Origin: a virus | Direction: 5' to 3' (one strand) | Virus record (IMG/VR): IMGVR_UViG_3300038454_000025 | Coordinates: 1 to 38,428 of that record | Length of the DNA stretch: 38,428 nt | In this document: one piece after another, positions 20,372-29,632 of the stretch | Position numbering within the stretch: position 1 is the first letter of the stretch | Layout of the letters: each line of letters starts with the position of its first letter | The notes under the pieces: model-generated | The model's database searches: none | The model's input: only the letters and a program-made list of their open reading frames with translations | Told to the model about the DNA's origin: nothing | Position numbers and translations under genes: made by a program

Positions 20372-20602
20372 TCATCTGCTGAACGCTTCGTCGACTGTCT
20401 CGAGCGCCGGAATCGGCGCCTTCCCGGAGTCGCGCTCGTGGGCCAGGATCCAGTTGGTCAGGTTCTCGAGCGCCGCTGCAGTTGCGATGGCGCGCGCGAT
20501 CTCGACGTTGGTGGCCCCCAACACAGCACTCAGAAACGCGTTCATCTCATCGACGGAAAATGGTGCGGCCCTGGTCTCTTGCGGCTCGGATGTTTCGGTC
20601 AT
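20372..20602 (-). CDS. Small helical hypothetical protein
   Basis: This 76-residue acidic protein is mainly Ala-rich helix (VDEMNAFLSAVLGATNVEIA). ATG 20602 overlaps the stop of the replication initiator gene as ATGA, so it is probably translated with it. A helicase-loader partner or a small regulator of the initiator is conceivable. No known motif. Confidence 0.65.
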   Translation of the reverse strand: MTETSEPQETRAAPFSVDEMNAFLSAVLGATNVEIARAIATAAALENLTNWILAHERDSGKAPIPALETVDEAFSR

Positions 20603-21510
20603 CGAAGTATTCCCTGATTTGGATCAATCCTTCGCCCTTCGGTCTCGACCTCGCCCGTCCAGTGATCCCAGTGGCGCGCGAGTTCGAGCGGAGTCACTAC
20701 GGTCGGGTACTTGGACACCAGGGCGAGCCGCCAGCGGCGCACGACCTCGAACGGGTCGGCAAGAGCCAGCAGGTCGCTCACGCCCTTCGCCCACGCACCG
20801 TTGACGGCGCCAGGTGGCGCACCTCGGGTCTCTCCGAAGATGATCACCATGGCCTCCAGAAGCGGCTTGTGGCGAGGGTCGGTGGGCTTCTCGAGCTTCG
20901 GTGGCTTGGCAGGCTTGCTTTTGGGTGGAGGGGACGTGCTCGTGCTCGAGACCTGTGGCGGTACCGATTCGAAGAGCTCCCCAGAAGCCGCGGGCGCTTC
21001 GCCCGCAAGGCTTTTAACTGTCTCGTCTCGTCTCGTCTCGTCTCGTCTCGTACGTGCGCCGTCACGCGTGACGTCCGGTGGACTGTCCGCGTGACCGTCC
21101 GTGGACTGTCCGCGTGACGTCACGGCGCCGCTCCGCGTGACAGCTGCGCGACGGGAACGCTCGTTCCGCTTCCTTTCGGCGTCTTTCTCGGCCTTTACGA
21201 CGTACTGACGCTGAATTTCCCACCAGTCGTGAACCTCAAGCGTCGCGCCGTCTTCCTGTCCTTCGAGCTCGTCCACGAGCCCGACTTGGACGAAGGCGGC
21301 GAGGAGCGCGCCGGGCTCCCCGCGCCATCCGCACGCGTGCTCGATGGCCGTCCGTGCGCCGTCACGCGGACGTCCGCGCGCCGCGTAGCGTGACGTCCAC
21401 GCGAGCAGACGCACATAGTACCAGCCGGACAATGGATCGTTCAGCAGCTCGGCGAGGCGGAAGACTTTGGGGTGATCCACCAGATCGGCGTCAACGCGAA
21501 ACCAGCTCAT
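20599..21510 (-). CDS. Replication initiator/helicase-loader-like protein
   Basis: From ATG 21510 this is 303 residues. The N-terminal domain (SWFRVDADLVDHPKVFRLAE to about residue 110) resembles replisome-organiser/DnaD-type winged-helix domains of phage initiators. A charged linker (110-215) follows, rich in Arg, then Ser/Pro/Lys. The C-terminal domain (LEAMVIIFGETRGAPPGAVN, DPFEVVRRWRLAL) resembles the helicase-loading domain of such proteins. A TTG at 21603 would add 31 residues of unlikely composition, and I reject it. The linker DNA carries the iteron cluster and the pentanucleotide array described separately, as lambda O carries its origin. The 5-bp repeat units make the frame vulnerable to slippage. 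Confidence 0.83.
   Translation of the reverse strand: MSWFRVDADLVDHPKVFRLAELLNDPLSGWYYVRLLAWTSRYAARGRPRDGARTAIEHACGWRGEPGALLAAFVQVGLVDELEGQEDGATLEVHDWWEIQRQYVVKAEKDAERKRNERSRRAAVTRSGAVTSRGQSTDGHADSPPDVTRDGARTRRDETRRDETVKSLAGEAPAASGELFESVPPQVSSTSTSPPPKSKPAKPPKLEKPTDPRHKPLLEAMVIIFGETRGAPPGAVNGAWAKGVSDLLALADPFEVVRRWRLALVSKYPTVVTPLELARHWDHWTGEVETEGRRIDPNQGILR
21021..21050. repeat. Pentanucleotide array (TCTCG)6 in the initiator gene
   Basis: Six perfect copies of TCTCG lie in the linker region, coding on the minus strand for the repeated DETRR pattern. Since 5 is not a multiple of 3, gain or loss of a unit shifts the frame and removes the C-terminal domain. Confidence 0.9.
21053..21141. other. 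Candidate replication origin (four iterons, 23-bp period)
   Basis: GCGTGAC occurs at 21066, 21089, 21112 and 21135: four identical heptamers spaced exactly 23 bp, with the middle units alike over longer stretches. This lies inside the initiator gene, as in lambda O. The period is not a multiple of three, so protein repetition does not explain it. A partial second cluster lies at 21353-21394 (GTCACGC at 21361, GCGTGAC at 21388). No clear AT-rich unwinding element is seen; AGTTAAAAG (minus strand, about 21011-21019) is the nearest. Confidence 0.6.
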
Positions 21511-21561: not shown

Positions 21562-21650
21562 CTCCCATACCTCGGGACTGGGGGAATTTTGGTCTGGCGG
21601 CAACCCGACACGGATTGGACCCTACGGGGGCGAGATGGGGCGGTCAAGGC

Positions 21651-22031
21651 TCAGACTCCTCGCTCGAGATATGGCCGAACTCGCGAGACGAGGTGGCCCT
21701 TCATGGCTTCGCCTCGACGGACCGAGCGATTCCGAGCAGCACGTCGCGGAACTCGGGCGGGGTGGAAGCGGCAGCCTTGCTCGAGAGCCGAGGTCGGCCG
21801 TCGAACTCTCCGCGGGGCGCCTCCCGCCACGCTCGCCCGACCATCGGCCGAGAGGCGCGCGTCATCGGGCCATGGGTCGGCGTCCTCGGGCCACAGGTCG
21901 GCCTCGGGCCATGGGTCGGCGTCCTCGGGCCATGGGTCGGCCTCGGGCCATGGGTCGGCGTCATCGGGACACGAGTCGACGTCCTCTGGCCCGTAGTAGA
22001 CGCCGTTTCGGTGGACGAAGAGGGCGATCAC
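21651..22031 (-). pseudogene. Degenerate gene with tandem DPWPE repeats
   Basis: The frame from GTG 22031 starts VIALFVHRNGVYYGPEDVD, which resembles the opening of a phage protein family of unknown function. It then runs into a repeat region of DPWPEA/DPWPEDA units (21861-21980) and a tail of unlikely composition ending at 21651. In another frame the segment 21701-21800 reads FDGRPRLSSKAAASTPPEF and a plausible end, which suggests a past frameshift in the repeat. A short ATG 21704 frame follows. I judge this a truncated or repeat-disrupted gene. It overlaps the upstream stop as GTGA, so it was once coupled. Confidence 0.5.
21861..21980. repeat. Tandem 21/18-bp repeat array
   Basis: Six units: 21861-21881 (21 bp), 21882-21902 (21), 21903-21920 (18), 21921-21941 (21), 21942-21959 (18), 21960-21980 (21). 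The core is CTCGGGCCATGGGTCGGC, and the outermost units are the most diverged. All units are multiples of 3, so array changes keep the frame. There are no spacers, so it is not a CRISPR. Confidence 0.9.
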
Positions 22032-22548: not shown

Positions 22549-23234
22549 GATCGGCCCCCGATCAGCGCCCGCGCGGCCTCGAGGTCGCGGAGCACGGTCT
22601 TGTCGCAGCAGATGGTTGCCGAAATGGAGGCGACGAGGTGGCGAAGTGCAGTGGTCACCGCATCGAGAGCGACGTGGTGCTCTCGGAACTGGGACTCGAT
22701 CCCTTCCCTGGCCTCGTCGCGCTCGGCGGTGAGTCGTTCGATGAGCTCGCTGTCGGCGCGGCGGTGATCGTCGAGTAGCTCGAATTTCGCGATGGCCTCG
22801 TCACGCTCGACGCGCACCTCGTCGAGCTCGGCGAGTGACGCATGGTGAGAGCGCTCCTCGATGTGGTGCACTCGAGTCCGAGCCGCGAGCGCTTCGACCG
22901 CGCGCTTGGCGGTCTCTTCGACGTTCTCGGGTCCGTTCGAGCCGATGGCCTCGATCAGGATCTGGGCGGCGGTGCGGCACCGGAAGAGGGTCTCGTTGTG
23001 CTCGCGCTCGGCTCGCCCTGCCGCCGCACACCACCGGGTCGCGACTCCGGTCATCTCCGCCAGCTCTCGGCGGAGCTTGGAGATCTCTCCGGCGATCTCG
23101 AGGTTCGTCGCCTCTTGCTCGATCCGCTCGCGCCGGAGTCTGGCGAGCTCGAGTTCGTCGGAGGTGAGCCCCTGCTCTCCGCCTGTGGCCTCGAGGCAAT
23201 GGGCAGGGCTCGGGCATTCGCATGGGAGGATCAC
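22545..23234 (-). CDS. Coiled-coil protein with N-terminal Cys motif
   Basis: From GTG 23234 (GTGA overlap with the radical SAM stop) this is 229 residues. The start holds LPCECPSPAHCLEATGG with three Cys, then long charged helices (ELARLRRERIEQEATNLEIA; later ELDEVRVERDEAIAKFELLD) typical of a coiled coil. It probably oligomerises. The direct coupling to the radical SAM gene could mean a shared process, but nothing in the sequence shows this. The longer frame to 23453 lies antiphase under the radical SAM gene. Confidence 0.7.
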   Translation of the reverse strand: MILPCECPSPAHCLEATGGEQGLTSDELELARLRRERIEQEATNLEIAGEISKLRRELAEMTGVATRWCAAAGRAEREHNETLFRCRTAAQILIEAIGSNGPENVEETAKRAVEALAARTRVHHIEERSHHASLAELDEVRVERDEAIAKFELLDDHRRADSELIERLTAERDEAREGIESQFREHHVALDAVTTALRHLVASISATICCDKTVLRDLEAARALIGGRS

Positions 23235-24208
23235 GGCCGCCTCGCTCTCGCGCCTGGCCCGAGCTCCTTCGCGAGGTCGCGCACCCGGTTGTTGTAATCG
23301 ACGCAGACGTCCAGGCAGTTCCTTCGGCAGATGTCGTCGCGGTGGCTGTCGTGCTTCTCGAACCACTTCGTCCGCTGCCTTCTCGCGTCGGGCCCCATGA
23401 GCCCGATGGGGGCGCCTCCCTCGCGAAGGTAGATGATGCATGGAAAGTGCCACTTACCGGCTACGGCCATATCATCCTTCACCAGGTGGCACTTGCCGCA
23501 GTCGGTGGGCTCGAGTCCTCGCACACGCCGCCCCTCGGACCGGTACTTGAGGATGGGGTGGCGGGCGAGAATCTCTTCAGGCACGTCGATCCTCGGCTGC
23601 TGGTTGTGCTGCGCTGCTGAGATGATGCGGATGTCCGCAACGCCGAGCTTGTGAGCCAGGTCGATGGTCCGGTGCATCTCTGCCAGGTTGTCCTCGGTGA
23701 GGACGACACCGACCGTCACGTAGGCGCGCTCTGAGAGGCGGCGAATCGCCTCAGTCACCTTCGCCCACGCCCCGCTGATGCCACCCGCCATCTCGTCGCC
23801 GGTGGAAGCACAGCAGGCATCCAGCGAGATGGAGAAGTCGTCGACACCCGCTTCAAGCAAGCGTTCGTAGACCTCCCACGCCGCCGAGCCGTTGCTGCTG
23901 ATCGCGATGCGGTGTGCTCCGCACGCCTTGACGTAGCGGACCATCTCGAGGAGCTCGGGGTGGAGGGTCGGCTCCCCGCCGGAGAAGCGAACATTCTGGA
24001 GTCCCTCGGCGACCCACGCCTTCAGAATGGGCTCCCATTCTCGGCGGCGCATCTTCCCGCGCAGCTCGGGCTTGGCCCCGCGGCAGTATGGGCACGCGAA
24101 GTTACATGCGCTCGTGATGAGGAGCTCGCATCGCGCCAGGGGGCCTTCACCTGCCCTCGCCGCGCGCTCGTCGCTCATCGTGTAGAAACCAATCTTCTCA
24201 AGCTTCAT
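23231..24208 (-). CDS. Radical SAM enzyme with extra cysteine cluster
   Basis: This 325-residue protein has the radical SAM signature C35-x3-C39-x2-C42 (SACNFACPYC), GGEPTLHP (77-84) and further core strands (ISSNGSAAWEVYERLL, DFSISLDACC). A C-terminal set of Cys (237, 240, 257, 294, 298, 302) resembles a SPASM/twitch-like site for an auxiliary Fe-S cluster. Such enzymes use a 5'-deoxyadenosyl radical to modify peptides, nucleic acids or cofactors. ATG 24208 overlaps the methyltransferase stop as ATGA, so the two are co-translated. Substrate unknown; I see no precursor-peptide gene next to it. Length and motifs appear complete. Confidence 0.9.
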   Translation of the reverse strand: MKLEKIGFYTMSDERAARAGEGPLARCELLITSACNFACPYCRGAKPELRGKMRRREWEPILKAWVAEGLQNVRFSGGEPTLHPELLEMVRYVKACGAHRIAISSNGSAAWEVYERLLEAGVDDFSISLDACCASTGDEMAGGISGAWAKVTEAIRRLSERAYVTVGVVLTEDNLAEMHRTIDLAHKLGVADIRIISAAQHNQQPRIDVPEEILARHPILKYRSEGRRVRGLEPTDCGKCHLVKDDMAVAGKWHFPCIIYLREGGAPIGLMGPDARRQRTKWFEKHDSHRDDICRRNCLDVCVDYNNRVRDLAKELGPGARARRP

Positions 24209-25188
24209 CGTCTCTCCTTGGTTGGTGGTGGTCTGGTCACGTTGCGGGCCCGACGCTCCGCCATCTCGGCGTACGCCGGATTGAGCTCGACACCCACAAA
24301 GCGGCGCCCTTCACGGAGCGCGACGACTCCGGTCGTGCCCGTGCCGGCGAACGGGTCGAGCACCGTGTCGCCCGGGCGACTGCCGGCGACGATGCAGCGC
24401 TGGGCGAGCGACTCGGGGAAGGCGGCGAAGTGCTCAAGCGAGCTCGGCTGTGTCTGGATTGTCCAGACATCGCGCCAGTTGCGAAACTCCACGACGTCCT
24501 TCACCGCGGAGCTGAAGGACGCATTCTGTCTGCCATTCCTGAGCCGAGCGGTGAATGCCTTGGCTGCAGCCTTCGGGTTGATGCCGGAGCCTCTCGAGTG
24601 CGCAGCGCCAGCGACGCAGCGCTCCCGCGCCTCCTCGGTGTTGTAGAAGTACCGCTCGGACTTCGAGATCAAGAACACGAACTCGTGCGAGACGGTCGGG
24701 CGATCGCGCACCGACTCAGGCATGGGGTTCGGCTTCGCCCAAACGACGTCCGAGCGCAGCCACCACCCGTCTTCCTGCAGCGCGAAGGCGACGCGCCAGG
24801 GGATGCCGAGCTTGTCTTTTGGCTTCAAGCCATCGAGCCGGCTCTTGAGCTTCAGTTGCGCGGCTCGTGCGGAGCGCTGCTGGAAGCCGCCGTTGATCGT
24901 CGAGTTCGCCCTGCGGCTGCAGCCCCATGCGTCGGACGCGTAGGTGTCGCCAAGGTTGATCCACGCGGTGCCGTCGGGTCGGAGTACTCGGCGGACCTCG
25001 CCGAAGACTTCGACGAGCCGCTGGACGTACTCCGCTCGGGTCGGTTCGAGCCCGATCTGTCCCTCGACTCCGTAGTCTCTGAGGCCGTAGTACGGGGGCG
25101 AAGTCACGCACGTCTGCGCGGAGTCGGCGGGGAGTGCGCGGAGCCGCTCGAGTGCGTCGCCGATGTGGAGATTGAAGGCGGGCGTCAT
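24205..25188 (-). CDS. DNA methyltransferase (N4-cytosine or N6-adenine, beta-type order)
   Basis: This 327-residue protein has the catalytic motif TSPPYYGLRDYG (29-40) first and the SAM-binding motif DPFAGTGTTG (278-287) near the end, the order of beta-class amino-methyltransferases. SPPY is most common in N4-cytosine enzymes but occurs in N6-adenine ones. The middle (residues 80-270) includes a probable target-recognition region. No restriction endonuclease gene is seen next to it, so it may protect phage DNA or act as an orphan enzyme. ATG 25188 overlaps the upstream stop as ATGA. Specificity cannot be read from sequence. Confidence 0.93.
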   Translation of the reverse strand: MTPAFNLHIGDALERLRALPADSAQTCVTSPPYYGLRDYGVEGQIGLEPTRAEYVQRLVEVFGEVRRVLRPDGTAWINLGDTYASDAWGCSRRANSTINGGFQQRSARAAQLKLKSRLDGLKPKDKLGIPWRVAFALQEDGWWLRSDVVWAKPNPMPESVRDRPTVSHEFVFLISKSERYFYNTEEARERCVAGAAHSRGSGINPKAAAKAFTARLRNGRQNASFSSAVKDVVEFRNWRDVWTIQTQPSSLEHFAAFPESLAQRCIVAGSRPGDTVLDPFAGTGTTGVVALREGRRFVGVELNPAYAEMAERRARNVTRPPPTKERR

Positions 25189-27767: not shown

Positions 27768-27958
27768 CGATCCACGAAGCTGCAATGCTTTTCAGGACTG
27801 CTCGCCATCCGACGAGCGACCTGGCCAGAGACCTCGCACTGAGTCGGATTGTCCTCATTGTCGCCAAAGAGCTCGCGCACGAGCACGGCATCAGCACACA
27901 GGAAGCGGCGAAGGGGCTGCAGGACGTCATTCGATCTCCGGTGGTCCAATGGCCCTGA
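27764..27958 (+). CDS. Small hypothetical protein
   Basis: This 64-residue helical protein (SDLARDLALSRIVLIVAKEL, HGISTQEAAKGLQD) starts at ATG 27764 (ATGA overlap) and ends 10 bp inside the YqaJ gene. It immediately precedes the recombinase pair, so it could be an accessory, but no motif supports this. Confidence 0.62.
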   Translation: MTIHEAAMLFRTARHPTSDLARDLALSRIVLIVAKELAHEHGISTQEAAKGLQDVIRSPVVQWP

Positions 27959-28809
27959 CATCAGAGCAGATCGCGATGCGCCGCACAGGCATCGGCGGAA
28001 GTGAGATCGCTGCGCTACTCGGAGAGGACGCCTTCTCGACTCCGTTCGACGTCTGGCTGGAGAAGACGCAGGGATGGGTGCGGCCATCGACTCCAGACAT
28101 GGAACGCGGGCTCCACCTCGAAGCTGGAATCGCGGAGTGGTACTCCGCCCGGACTGGCGCCGTTCTCGTCGAGTCGGCTACCCAGCGGCATGTCCGGGTC
28201 CCGCTGGCGTTCTGCACACCGGACCGCTTCGAGCGCGTGGCCTCGGCCACAGTCAGACTCATCAGCATCAAGTCTCCTCGGAGAGGAGATGCGTGGGGAA
28301 AGGACGGTACCGACGATGTGCCTCCCGGGTACCTGCTACAGCTCCAGTGGGAGCACGCCGTGTGTGGATCCATGATGTCCATCGCTCCCGACATGCGGCT
28401 CGTCGCACTCGTCGACGGCGATCTGCGCGTCTACGAGGCCAAGGCGGATCTGGAGCTCCAAGCATGGATGCTCGAGTACGCGCAGACGTGGTGGAAGCGG
28501 CACGTGGTCGGAGGCGAGCAGCCTCCGCTCGACGGGAGCAATGATGCAAACAGATGGCTGAGGACCAAGTTCCCACGCGACACGTCTCCTATTCGGCAGG
28601 CGAGCATGACAGAAGACCTCTGCATGCTCGAACTGCGATTCGTTGAGGCCGACCTCAAGCGACTAGAGGGCGAGGCCATGGCGCTGAAGCTCGATCTGAT
28701 GCAGGCGATCGGCGATGCCGGAGGGCTCGAGTCGCCAACAGGTGTAATCACGTACAGGGCAGACAAGAATGGTAAGCGCAGTTTCAGGACACGCTGGACG
28801 GAGGAGTGA
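27949..28809 (+). CDS. YqaJ-family viral recombinase (exonuclease)
   Basis: This 286-residue protein belongs to the lambda-exonuclease-like YqaJ family. Visible family marks are GIGGSEIAALLG (14-25), MERGLHLEAGIAEWY (51-65), CTPDRFE (89-95), IKSPRR (107-112) and VPPGYLLQLQWEHAVCG (124-140). Such enzymes trim 5' strands for RecT to anneal. The usual glutamate two residues before the catalytic Lys is Ser106 here (ISIK), so the E-x-K part of the core is not canonical; Asp92 and Glu52 are kept. A helical C-terminal part (LELRFVEADLKRLEGEAMAL) follows. The recT gene starts 1 bp after its stop, so the two are coupled. Confidence 0.9.
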   Translation: MALTSEQIAMRRTGIGGSEIAALLGEDAFSTPFDVWLEKTQGWVRPSTPDMERGLHLEAGIAEWYSARTGAVLVESATQRHVRVPLAFCTPDRFERVASATVRLISIKSPRRGDAWGKDGTDDVPPGYLLQLQWEHAVCGSMMSIAPDMRLVALVDGDLRVYEAKADLELQAWMLEYAQTWWKRHVVGGEQPPLDGSNDANRWLRTKFPRDTSPIRQASMTEDLCMLELRFVEADLKRLEGEAMALKLDLMQAIGDAGGLESPTGVITYRADKNGKRSFRTRWTEE

Positions 28810-28810
28810 C

Positions 28811-29632
28811 ATGGCCAACGAAATAGTGAAGGACACGTCTACAGTTGGGCAACTGACGTCGCTGCTGCAGTCGCGCATGAGTCAGATCGAGAAGCTTGTT
28901 CCTCAGCACATGACGGCCGCGCGTCTCATGAGGATTGCCGTCAACTGCGTAGCCAAGACACCTGCACTTGGATCATGCAGTCCGACCTCGCTACTCCAAT
29001 GCGTGCTCGTTGCTGCTGAGCTCGGTCTCGAGCCTGGCGGTGCGCTTGGGCACATGTACCTAGTGCCGTTCAAGGGAGTGGCGACTCCGATCATCGGGTA
29101 TCGAGGCCTCATCGAGCTGGCTCGGCGCTCCGGTGAAATATCGAGCATCAGGGCCGTGGTGGTCCATGAGCGGGACAAGTTCAGGTACTCCGAGGGCATC
29201 GAGCAGCACATCGAGCACGAGCCATGCCTAGATGGAGACCCGGGGGCTCTCAAGCTTGCGTACTGCGTGATCAGGCTCCGTGACGGCGGCGTGGTTGCTG
29301 AACTGATGACGAGGGCCCAGATCGACGCCATCAAGGCAACCAGCAAGACAGTGTCTCGAGACGATTCGCCATGGAAGCTGCACTACGACGAAATGGCCAA
29401 GAAGACGGTCGCTCGCCGAGCTCTGAAGTGGGCTCCCCTGTCAAGCGAGCGCTACTACAAGGCCATAGAGGCGGATGACGCAGACTACGTCGACGGCGAG
29501 TCGACTCCGGTAGACGTGGTGGCGCCAGCGCTCAAGGATCGCGTGAAGGCGAAGACGCGGCTGCTCGAGGTGCCGGAAGAGATTGAAGAGGTCCAGGTTC
29601 CAGATCCGAAGCCTACACCTCCGAAGGAGTGA
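28811..29632 (+). CDS. recT: RecT single-strand annealing protein
   Basis: This 273-residue protein has the RecT core: LGLEPGGALGHMYLVPF (71-87), IGYRGLIELARRSGEI (95-110) and HYDEMAKKTVARRALKWAP (191-209). The C-terminal 40 residues are acidic and Pro-rich, as in many RecT proteins. It binds the single strands made by the upstream nuclease and anneals them for recombination or replication restart. GGAGGAG precedes ATG 28811 by 4-5 nt. The longer open frame to 28769 is rejected. Confidence 0.95.
   Translation: MANEIVKDTSTVGQLTSLLQSRMSQIEKLVPQHMTAARLMRIAVNCVAKTPALGSCSPTSLLQCVLVAAELGLEPGGALGHMYLVPFKGVATPIIGYRGLIELARRSGEISSIRAVVVHERDKFRYSEGIEQHIEHEPCLDGDPGALKLAYCVIRLRDGGVVAELMTRAQIDAIKATSKTVSRDDSPWKLHYDEMAKKTVARRALKWAPLSSERYYKAIEADDADYVDGESTPVDVVAPALKDRVKAKTRLLEVPEEIEEVQVPDPKPTPPKE

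Follow-up and report, generated by a model that had tools for sequence, protein, structure and literature searches.

A probable replication origin of iterons and a pentamer tract inside the initiator gene of a phage

An origin of replication situated within the gene for its own initiator is textbook knowledge for phage lambda; to our knowledge, few phage origins have been mapped. The locus studied here lies in a viral DNA of 38,428 bp (IMG/VR record IMGVR_UViG_3300038454_000025), the whole of which is referred to below as the window, and it raises the question whether a series of regularly spaced repeats inside an initiator gene marks such an origin. In the preliminary description, four copies of GCGTGAC were considered hard to explain by coding constraint and were proposed to form an origin bound by the product of the same gene, as with lambda O. 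The features discussed are collected in Table 1.

Table 1. Features in and around the initiator gene (window coordinates; a point indicates no strand)
Feature	Coordinates	Strand	Basis or remark
Replication initiator gene	20599..21510	-	phrog_9474 match, E 8e-22, alignment starting at ATG
N-terminal winged-helix domain codons (aa 1-125), presumed iteron binder	21136..21510	-	AlphaFold2 model
Predicted disordered linker codons (aa 126-214), host iterons and tract	20869..21135	-	AlphaFold2
Iteron 1 (gene order), GCGTGAC on + strand, GTCACGC on coding strand	21135..21141	.	
Iteron 2, overlapping palindrome GTGACGTCAC at 21114-21123	21112..21118	.	
Iteron 3	21089..21095	.	
Iteron 4 (21066-21072) and inverted partner (21061-21067), together palindrome CGTCACGCGTGACG	21060..21073	.	
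Pentamer tract, (ACGAG)6 on coding strand, (GTCTC) on + strand, codes RRDETRRDET	21020..21051	.	TRF
A+T-rich flank GCTTTTAACT adjoining tract	21010..21019	.	stability of 36-mers
Perfect hairpin GCGGGCGCTTCGCCCGC behind A+T-rich flank	20990..21006	.	best hairpin of gene
Second partial cluster, GTGCGCCGTCACGC and GCGTGACGTCC, two halves of iteron-4 region about 20 bp apart	21353..21398	.	in N-domain codons

The initiator gene and its iterons

The gene encodes a protein of 303 aa from an ATG at 21510, and its frame is open already from a TTG at 21603. Besides phrog_9474, which was the best PHROG match, the protein matched the initiator families 3926 and 2447. Among annotated homologues, the initiator of Myxococcus phage Mx9 comes closest, with 38.5% identity across the N-domain. 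Judged by these sequence matches, the gene is that of a phage replication initiator. No Pfam family was matched at E <= 0.1, and the RepA_N Pfam domain was thus not found.

In the AlphaFold2 model, the N-domain was predicted with fair confidence (pLDDT 60-88 for aa 11-120), pLDDT was below 50 for aa 128-214, and a small C-domain (aa 217-284) was modelled as helical with low confidence. Alignment of the N-domain model with PDB entries gave as best matches 4PQL, 4PT7 and 5KBJ (Z 6.1, 5.8 and 5.7, respectively), which are N-domains of plasmid RepA_N initiators, with an rmsd of about 3 A over 85-87 residues. These scores are low, and MarR-type regulators tie with them.

The positions of the four exact GCGTGAC copies (21066, 21089, 21112 and 21135) and their period of 23 bp were verified. 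On the coding strand, GTCACGC starts in gene order at 21141, 21118, 21095 and 21072, which places the site about 370-450 bp within the gene. A fifth, inverted copy overlaps iteron 4. The number of copies in the window is by itself not above chance (15 found, 13.3 expected). Among 7-mers present four times at a constant period anywhere in the 38,428 bp (periods of 8-79 bp tested), only GCGTGAC and its 1-nt shift were found, and no four-copy, constant-period 7-mer series of any kind arose in 3,000 shuffles in which the gene exchanged synonymous codons and kept its protein. As 23 is not divisible by three, the copies fall in frames 0, 1, 2 and 0; hence there is no protein repeat at that period. 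Coding constraint is thus indeed a poor explanation of the spacing, and the iteron series is supported as a DNA-level feature within codons of the predicted disordered linker.

The second cluster noted earlier is real but partial, consisting of a GCGTGAC copy in inverted orientation (21361-21367) and another in direct orientation (21388-21394). On the coding strand its halves read GGACGTCACGC and GCGTGACGGCGCACG. As both the second cluster and the iteron-4 region encode RDGART, a duplication at the protein level is also possible.

A tandem repeat of 18, 21 and 39 bp at 21859-21991 (133 bp), in a minus-strand ORF, encodes the acidic peptide DPWPEDADPWPEA. It was rejected as a rival origin, being an in-frame protein repeat with periods that are multiples of three, and it therefore provides an internal contrast to the frame-crossing iterons. 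GC skew, which had been suggested as a check for an origin near 21.1 kb, located none, since its broad cumulative minimum, extending over 20.5-26 kb, falls together with a change of gene orientation. Scans of the window for Rfam families and tRNAs found nothing. Upstream of the initiator gene, adjacent genes for a radical SAM protein (23231-24208) and an N6/N4 DNA methylase (24205-25188) were recognised; the methylase domain appears interrupted (287 aa matched against a profile of 221 positions). Genes for a RecE-like exonuclease and a RecT-like annealing protein (27949-29632) lie on the strand opposite the initiator operon.

Close relatives of the initiator were not found in viral contigs, genome contigs or plasmids, and scans with the N-domains of Shimadzu and L165 gave no or few relatives. 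Phages that share the terminase (65% identity and below) have no replication module in common with the window; among 43 terminase-sharing contigs there was a single weak, C-terminal match to phrog_9474 and no (ACNAG)4 array. What distant relatives share with the window is the position and the layout, not the iteron sequence or the 23-bp period, and relatives with a similar N-domain have other iteron clusters at the corresponding position in the gene. The proposal that the gene product binds an origin within its own gene is supported by the initiator family, the linker position and the iteron clusters of relatives; the function itself is inferred.

The pentamer tract and its recurrence in other initiators

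A further element, absent from the preliminary description, is the pentamer tract, which TRF reported with 100% matches as (GTCTC)6.4. The order along the gene is four iterons, 8-9 bases, (ACGAG)6 from 21051 to 21020, the A+T-rich flank and the hairpin. The 5-nt periodicity of the tract exceeded that of every synonymous shuffle. The tract alone has 60% G+C and is only moderately unstable, belonging to the least stable 20% of its GC-rich gene, and 36-mers with starts at 21008-21014 rank within the lowest 4% of the window for stability. The tract and TTTTAA flank are situated 8-9 bp past the iteron palindrome, where the minimum of stability is moderate and local. The tract is proposed to be a strand-opening or helicase-entry tract. 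The hairpin (arms GCGGGCG and CGCCCGC around AAG) gave p = 0.099 against synonymous shuffles and is a possible third origin element; other initiators have an excess of hairpins behind the tract (12/48 and 7/42 at p <= 0.05), although such hairpins are not general.

The first search for relatives gave two initiators of little similarity that had in common the peptide DETRRDE, corresponding to an ACNAG pentamer array. Viral contigs scanned for five units of ACNAG yielded 96 stretches. Once duplicates, truncated ORFs and the long pure arrays, which form a class of their own, had been set aside, 45 arrays remained that lie well inside ORFs of at least 180 aa, nearly all of them directly behind an initiator-like N-domain. 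Many have short iteron-like repeats immediately 5' (for instance TGTCACA in L103, GTCACG in L133, GTCAC in L117 and CGTTACG in L166). Codon usage within these arrays was discarded as evidence, since for arrays picked by DNA pattern it is circular.

Arrays outside reading frames (L107, L121, L136, L144, L146, L158 and L185) were considered as non-coding origins and rejected, there being no recognisable initiator beside them. Those at L107, L121, L136 and L144 are near-identical ACTAG arrays with the same flanks on contigs from different samples. Near codon 55 of a phage ORF that was met repeatedly (FEQSGTFKNEFIKLGIPAEDY or closely similar; L106, L113, L119, L123, L124, L126, L147, L157 and L184) there are long, pure ACAAG arrays with 5-11 units, and at L092 an 11-unit ACCAG array lies immediately ahead of a methylase-like frame. 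These ACAAG arrays and the L092 array look like 5-bp phase-variation switches.

As the ACNAG set was chosen by the array and is biased accordingly, 48 initiator genes were gathered by N-domain homology instead. They comprise the window's own family (Mx9, Harrison, nd4, Shimadzu, Lagaffe, MT836645, Mwe1318 and Sc805-2), a Lin1244_N/DUF4373 family, and DUF1376-type and other named phages. The set has its own limits: 31 of the 48 genes come from one N-domain family and so cannot be counted as independent, members bearing arrays served as seeds for those families, and some records are near-identical (e.g. nd4 and MT836645). Many winged-helix proteins aligned with the DUF4373 model, among them again 4PQL (7.1) and the N-domain of DnaD, 2VN2 (7.0).

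Repeat clusters, scored as clustered 7-mers with the tract masked, exceeded shuffles in 20/48 initiators and in 8/110 control ORFs (p about 1e-6). Eighteen genes were significant for both repeats and tract, and in 16 of these the repeats are 5' of the tract. When three-letter pentamer motifs were ranked, the overlapping motifs AGAnn, GAnnA and AnnAG came first (27, 27 and 26 genes, respectively), followed by one with 12. ANNAG tracts scoring 18/18 were present within the window's PHROG family in nd4, Shimadzu, Lagaffe and MT836645. On the coding strand the tracts are A-rich (52%, as compared with 31% for the remaining gene) and T-poor. A strict 30-bp tract falls within the least stable tenth of its own gene in 32 of 49 cases, and A+T content in the initiator set peaks over the tract plus the next 20 nt.

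The arrays could be products of neutral slippage, if a disordered linker tolerates duplications and neither the 23-bp repeat nor the array of pentamers has a function. The predicted disorder of the linker, the perfection of the pentamer array and the close similarity of iteron units 1 and 2 (about 90%) agree with this, and recent tandem duplication does contribute, as two of the four 23-bp units are so alike. However, units 3 and 4 retain the GCGTGAC core despite a diverged spacer. Slippage selects neither a motif nor a place, whereas six ANNAG units (at least 17 of 18 positions) occur just behind the N-domain in 26/48 initiators and in 0/183 other ORFs of the same loci. Nor does it yield a constant A and AG with varying middle bases, as in nd4 (AGTAG, ACCAG, AGTAG, AGAAG, ATAAG and ACAAG in succession) and many other tracts. 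Slippage alone is thus an unlikely explanation.

It is also conceivable, though very unlikely, that the site is an operator for autoregulation or for control between replication and transcription, bound by the initiator or by a repressor, and not a place where replication starts. The paired inverted GTCAC/GTGAC half-sites are operator-like, and the second cluster lies within N-domain codons. Against this, a site so far into the gene is not in a promoter position and is coupled to the tract, and the precedents in lambda (PMC7466680) and pSK41 (PMC5703833) are origins.

Selection on the protein, with a conserved charged spacer peptide (TRRDETRRDE, TRLDK, EENRI and similar) that the DNA repeats merely follow, would account for the wide recurrence of such pentapeptides, which ANNAG encodes in similar charged form in every frame. 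The DNA-level excess speaks against it: a tandem tract of short period, almost always 5 or 6 bp, exceeded protein-preserving shuffles behind the N-domain in 41/48 initiators but in only 8/110 control ORFs (Fisher p about 1e-22). Where a gene lacks ANNAG, a different short tract usually takes its place, namely GGGACA in phi297 and Alize, GCCAGA in Mwe1318, GCCTAA in Sc805-2, CCGGAA in QDWS and CCTAA in Harrison; an ACCANN tract in Brusacoram did not exceed shuffles (p = 0.39). The hexamer tracts encode unlike dipeptides (GTGTGT in phi297, PEPEPE in Mwe1318), and the window's iterons, read in three frames, encode different peptides. Protein-level selection as the cause is thus most improbable. 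That 5-bp slippage in the pentamer array serves as a phase-variation switch by shifting the initiator frame is hardly credible, despite the perfect array of six units and the long pure ACAAG arrays in other phage ORFs (L106, L113 and L126), as most initiator tracts are short with the middle two bases interrupted, so that slippage is suppressed, and an essential initiator is a poor target for a switch.

Likeness to known systems

The annotated iterons of lambda O are four, spaced by 20, 24 and 23 bp inside O, and are followed by an A-rich stretch. The AT-rich tract of lambda is crucial to unwinding but not needed for iteron binding (PMC7466680). The window resembles ori-lambda (PMC7466680) in having four mid-gene iterons between the codons for the N- and C-domains and, 3' of them, an A-rich stretch that in the window is a proposed opening element, but the iteron sequence and the N-domain are different. 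Sequence homology to lambda O was not found, the matches being to PHROG 9474, 3926 and 2447 and to no Pfam family. No helicase or loader gene, and specifically no lambda P-like or DnaC-like loader, was recognised among the scanned window proteins. The lambda opening element is A+T-rich without a significant 5-6 bp tract (p = 0.36 for lambda O), whereas the proposed one of the window is a regular pentamer array. The rep gene of TP901-1 likewise has no significant 5-6 bp tract; hence such a tract is not universal.

In pSK41 Rep, an NTD of about 120 residues forms a winged helix and binds four boxes located centrally in rep; the protein can do without the linker that ori encodes, and has a separate CTD (PMC5703833). 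As proposed for the window, the RepA_N initiators of pSK41 and pTZ2162 thus have boxes inside their own gene for the NTD to bind, and ori DNA that encodes the linker. The window protein differs in belonging to a phage and not a plasmid, in lacking a Pfam match and in its low structural scores. For pSK41, the review section concerned mentions no tract comparable to that of the window. On the best reading, the window initiator would work like lambda O and the RepA_N initiators, but it is by sequence a member of neither group.

A third likeness is to the oriC of Bacillus subtilis, with its DnaA-trios and DnaD recognition element, where initiator boxes also adjoin a tract of short period. B. subtilis DnaD binds 5'-TnnT-3', the DnaD recognition element, as ssDNA (PMC10201434). 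Read on the non-coding strand, ANNAG yields one TnnT per 5 nt, and in the window the CTCGT repeats of the + strand (21020-21051) do so as TCGT, adjoining the putative initiator boxes; the criterion of at least two TnnT motifs on a single strand is thus fulfilled. The window tract differs in being intragenic and phage-borne, and the period is 5-6 nt rather than 3. Since the hexamer tracts (GGGACA, CCGGAA and GCCAGA) lack TnnT, this motif was rejected as a universal rule for the tracts, and the link to DnaD is only a hypothesis.

The proposed origin and its significance

The most plausible interpretation is an origin of replication within the coding sequence of the phage's own initiator, which we regard as probable in the absence of binding or replication data. 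The gene family, the iterons, the tract, the DNA-level excess and the recurring order of N-domain, iterons, tract and C-domain can be read directly from the DNA. Iteron binding, strand opening and helicase loading are inferred from them. The winged-helix N-domain would bind the four GTCACGC iterons as an oligomer, their 23-bp spacing corresponding to about two helical turns. Strain or capture of a single strand may then open the A-rich, T-poor (ACGAG)6 tract with its A+T-rich flank, and the C-domain would recruit the host helicase or its loader. As the protein needs merely a flexible linker at this place, the linker DNA is free to carry the origin.

A wider claim can be made only tentatively and remains somewhat less likely to hold than to fail: that initiator-specific iterons followed by a 5-6 bp tract, mostly A-N-N-A-G, form a general origin module of tailed phages, placed in the linker codons behind many unrelated N-domains. 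During opening and helicase loading, it is the single-stranded form of the tract that would be read, as a phage counterpart of the DnaA-trios or the DnaD recognition element. No description of the 5-6 bp tract or of the linker peptides was found in the open-access literature, outside which most subscription journals lie. Intragenic origins are already known; the recurring tract is apparently undescribed, as far as the open-access literature goes.

The same two-part layout occurs at the same place behind unrelated N-domains, while both the protein and the iteron sequence change, and the hosts of the phages concerned belong to the Proteobacteria, Firmicutes, Actinobacteria, Cyanobacteria and Myxococcota. 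Should the tract prove to be a true origin element, linker peptides such as TRLDKTRLDK, TRPDQTRPDQ and RRDETRRDE would be explained as DNA signals and not as features of the protein, and a testable question would be posed, namely what recognises a 5-6 nt period in ssDNA. The origins of uncultured phages could then be read directly from contigs.
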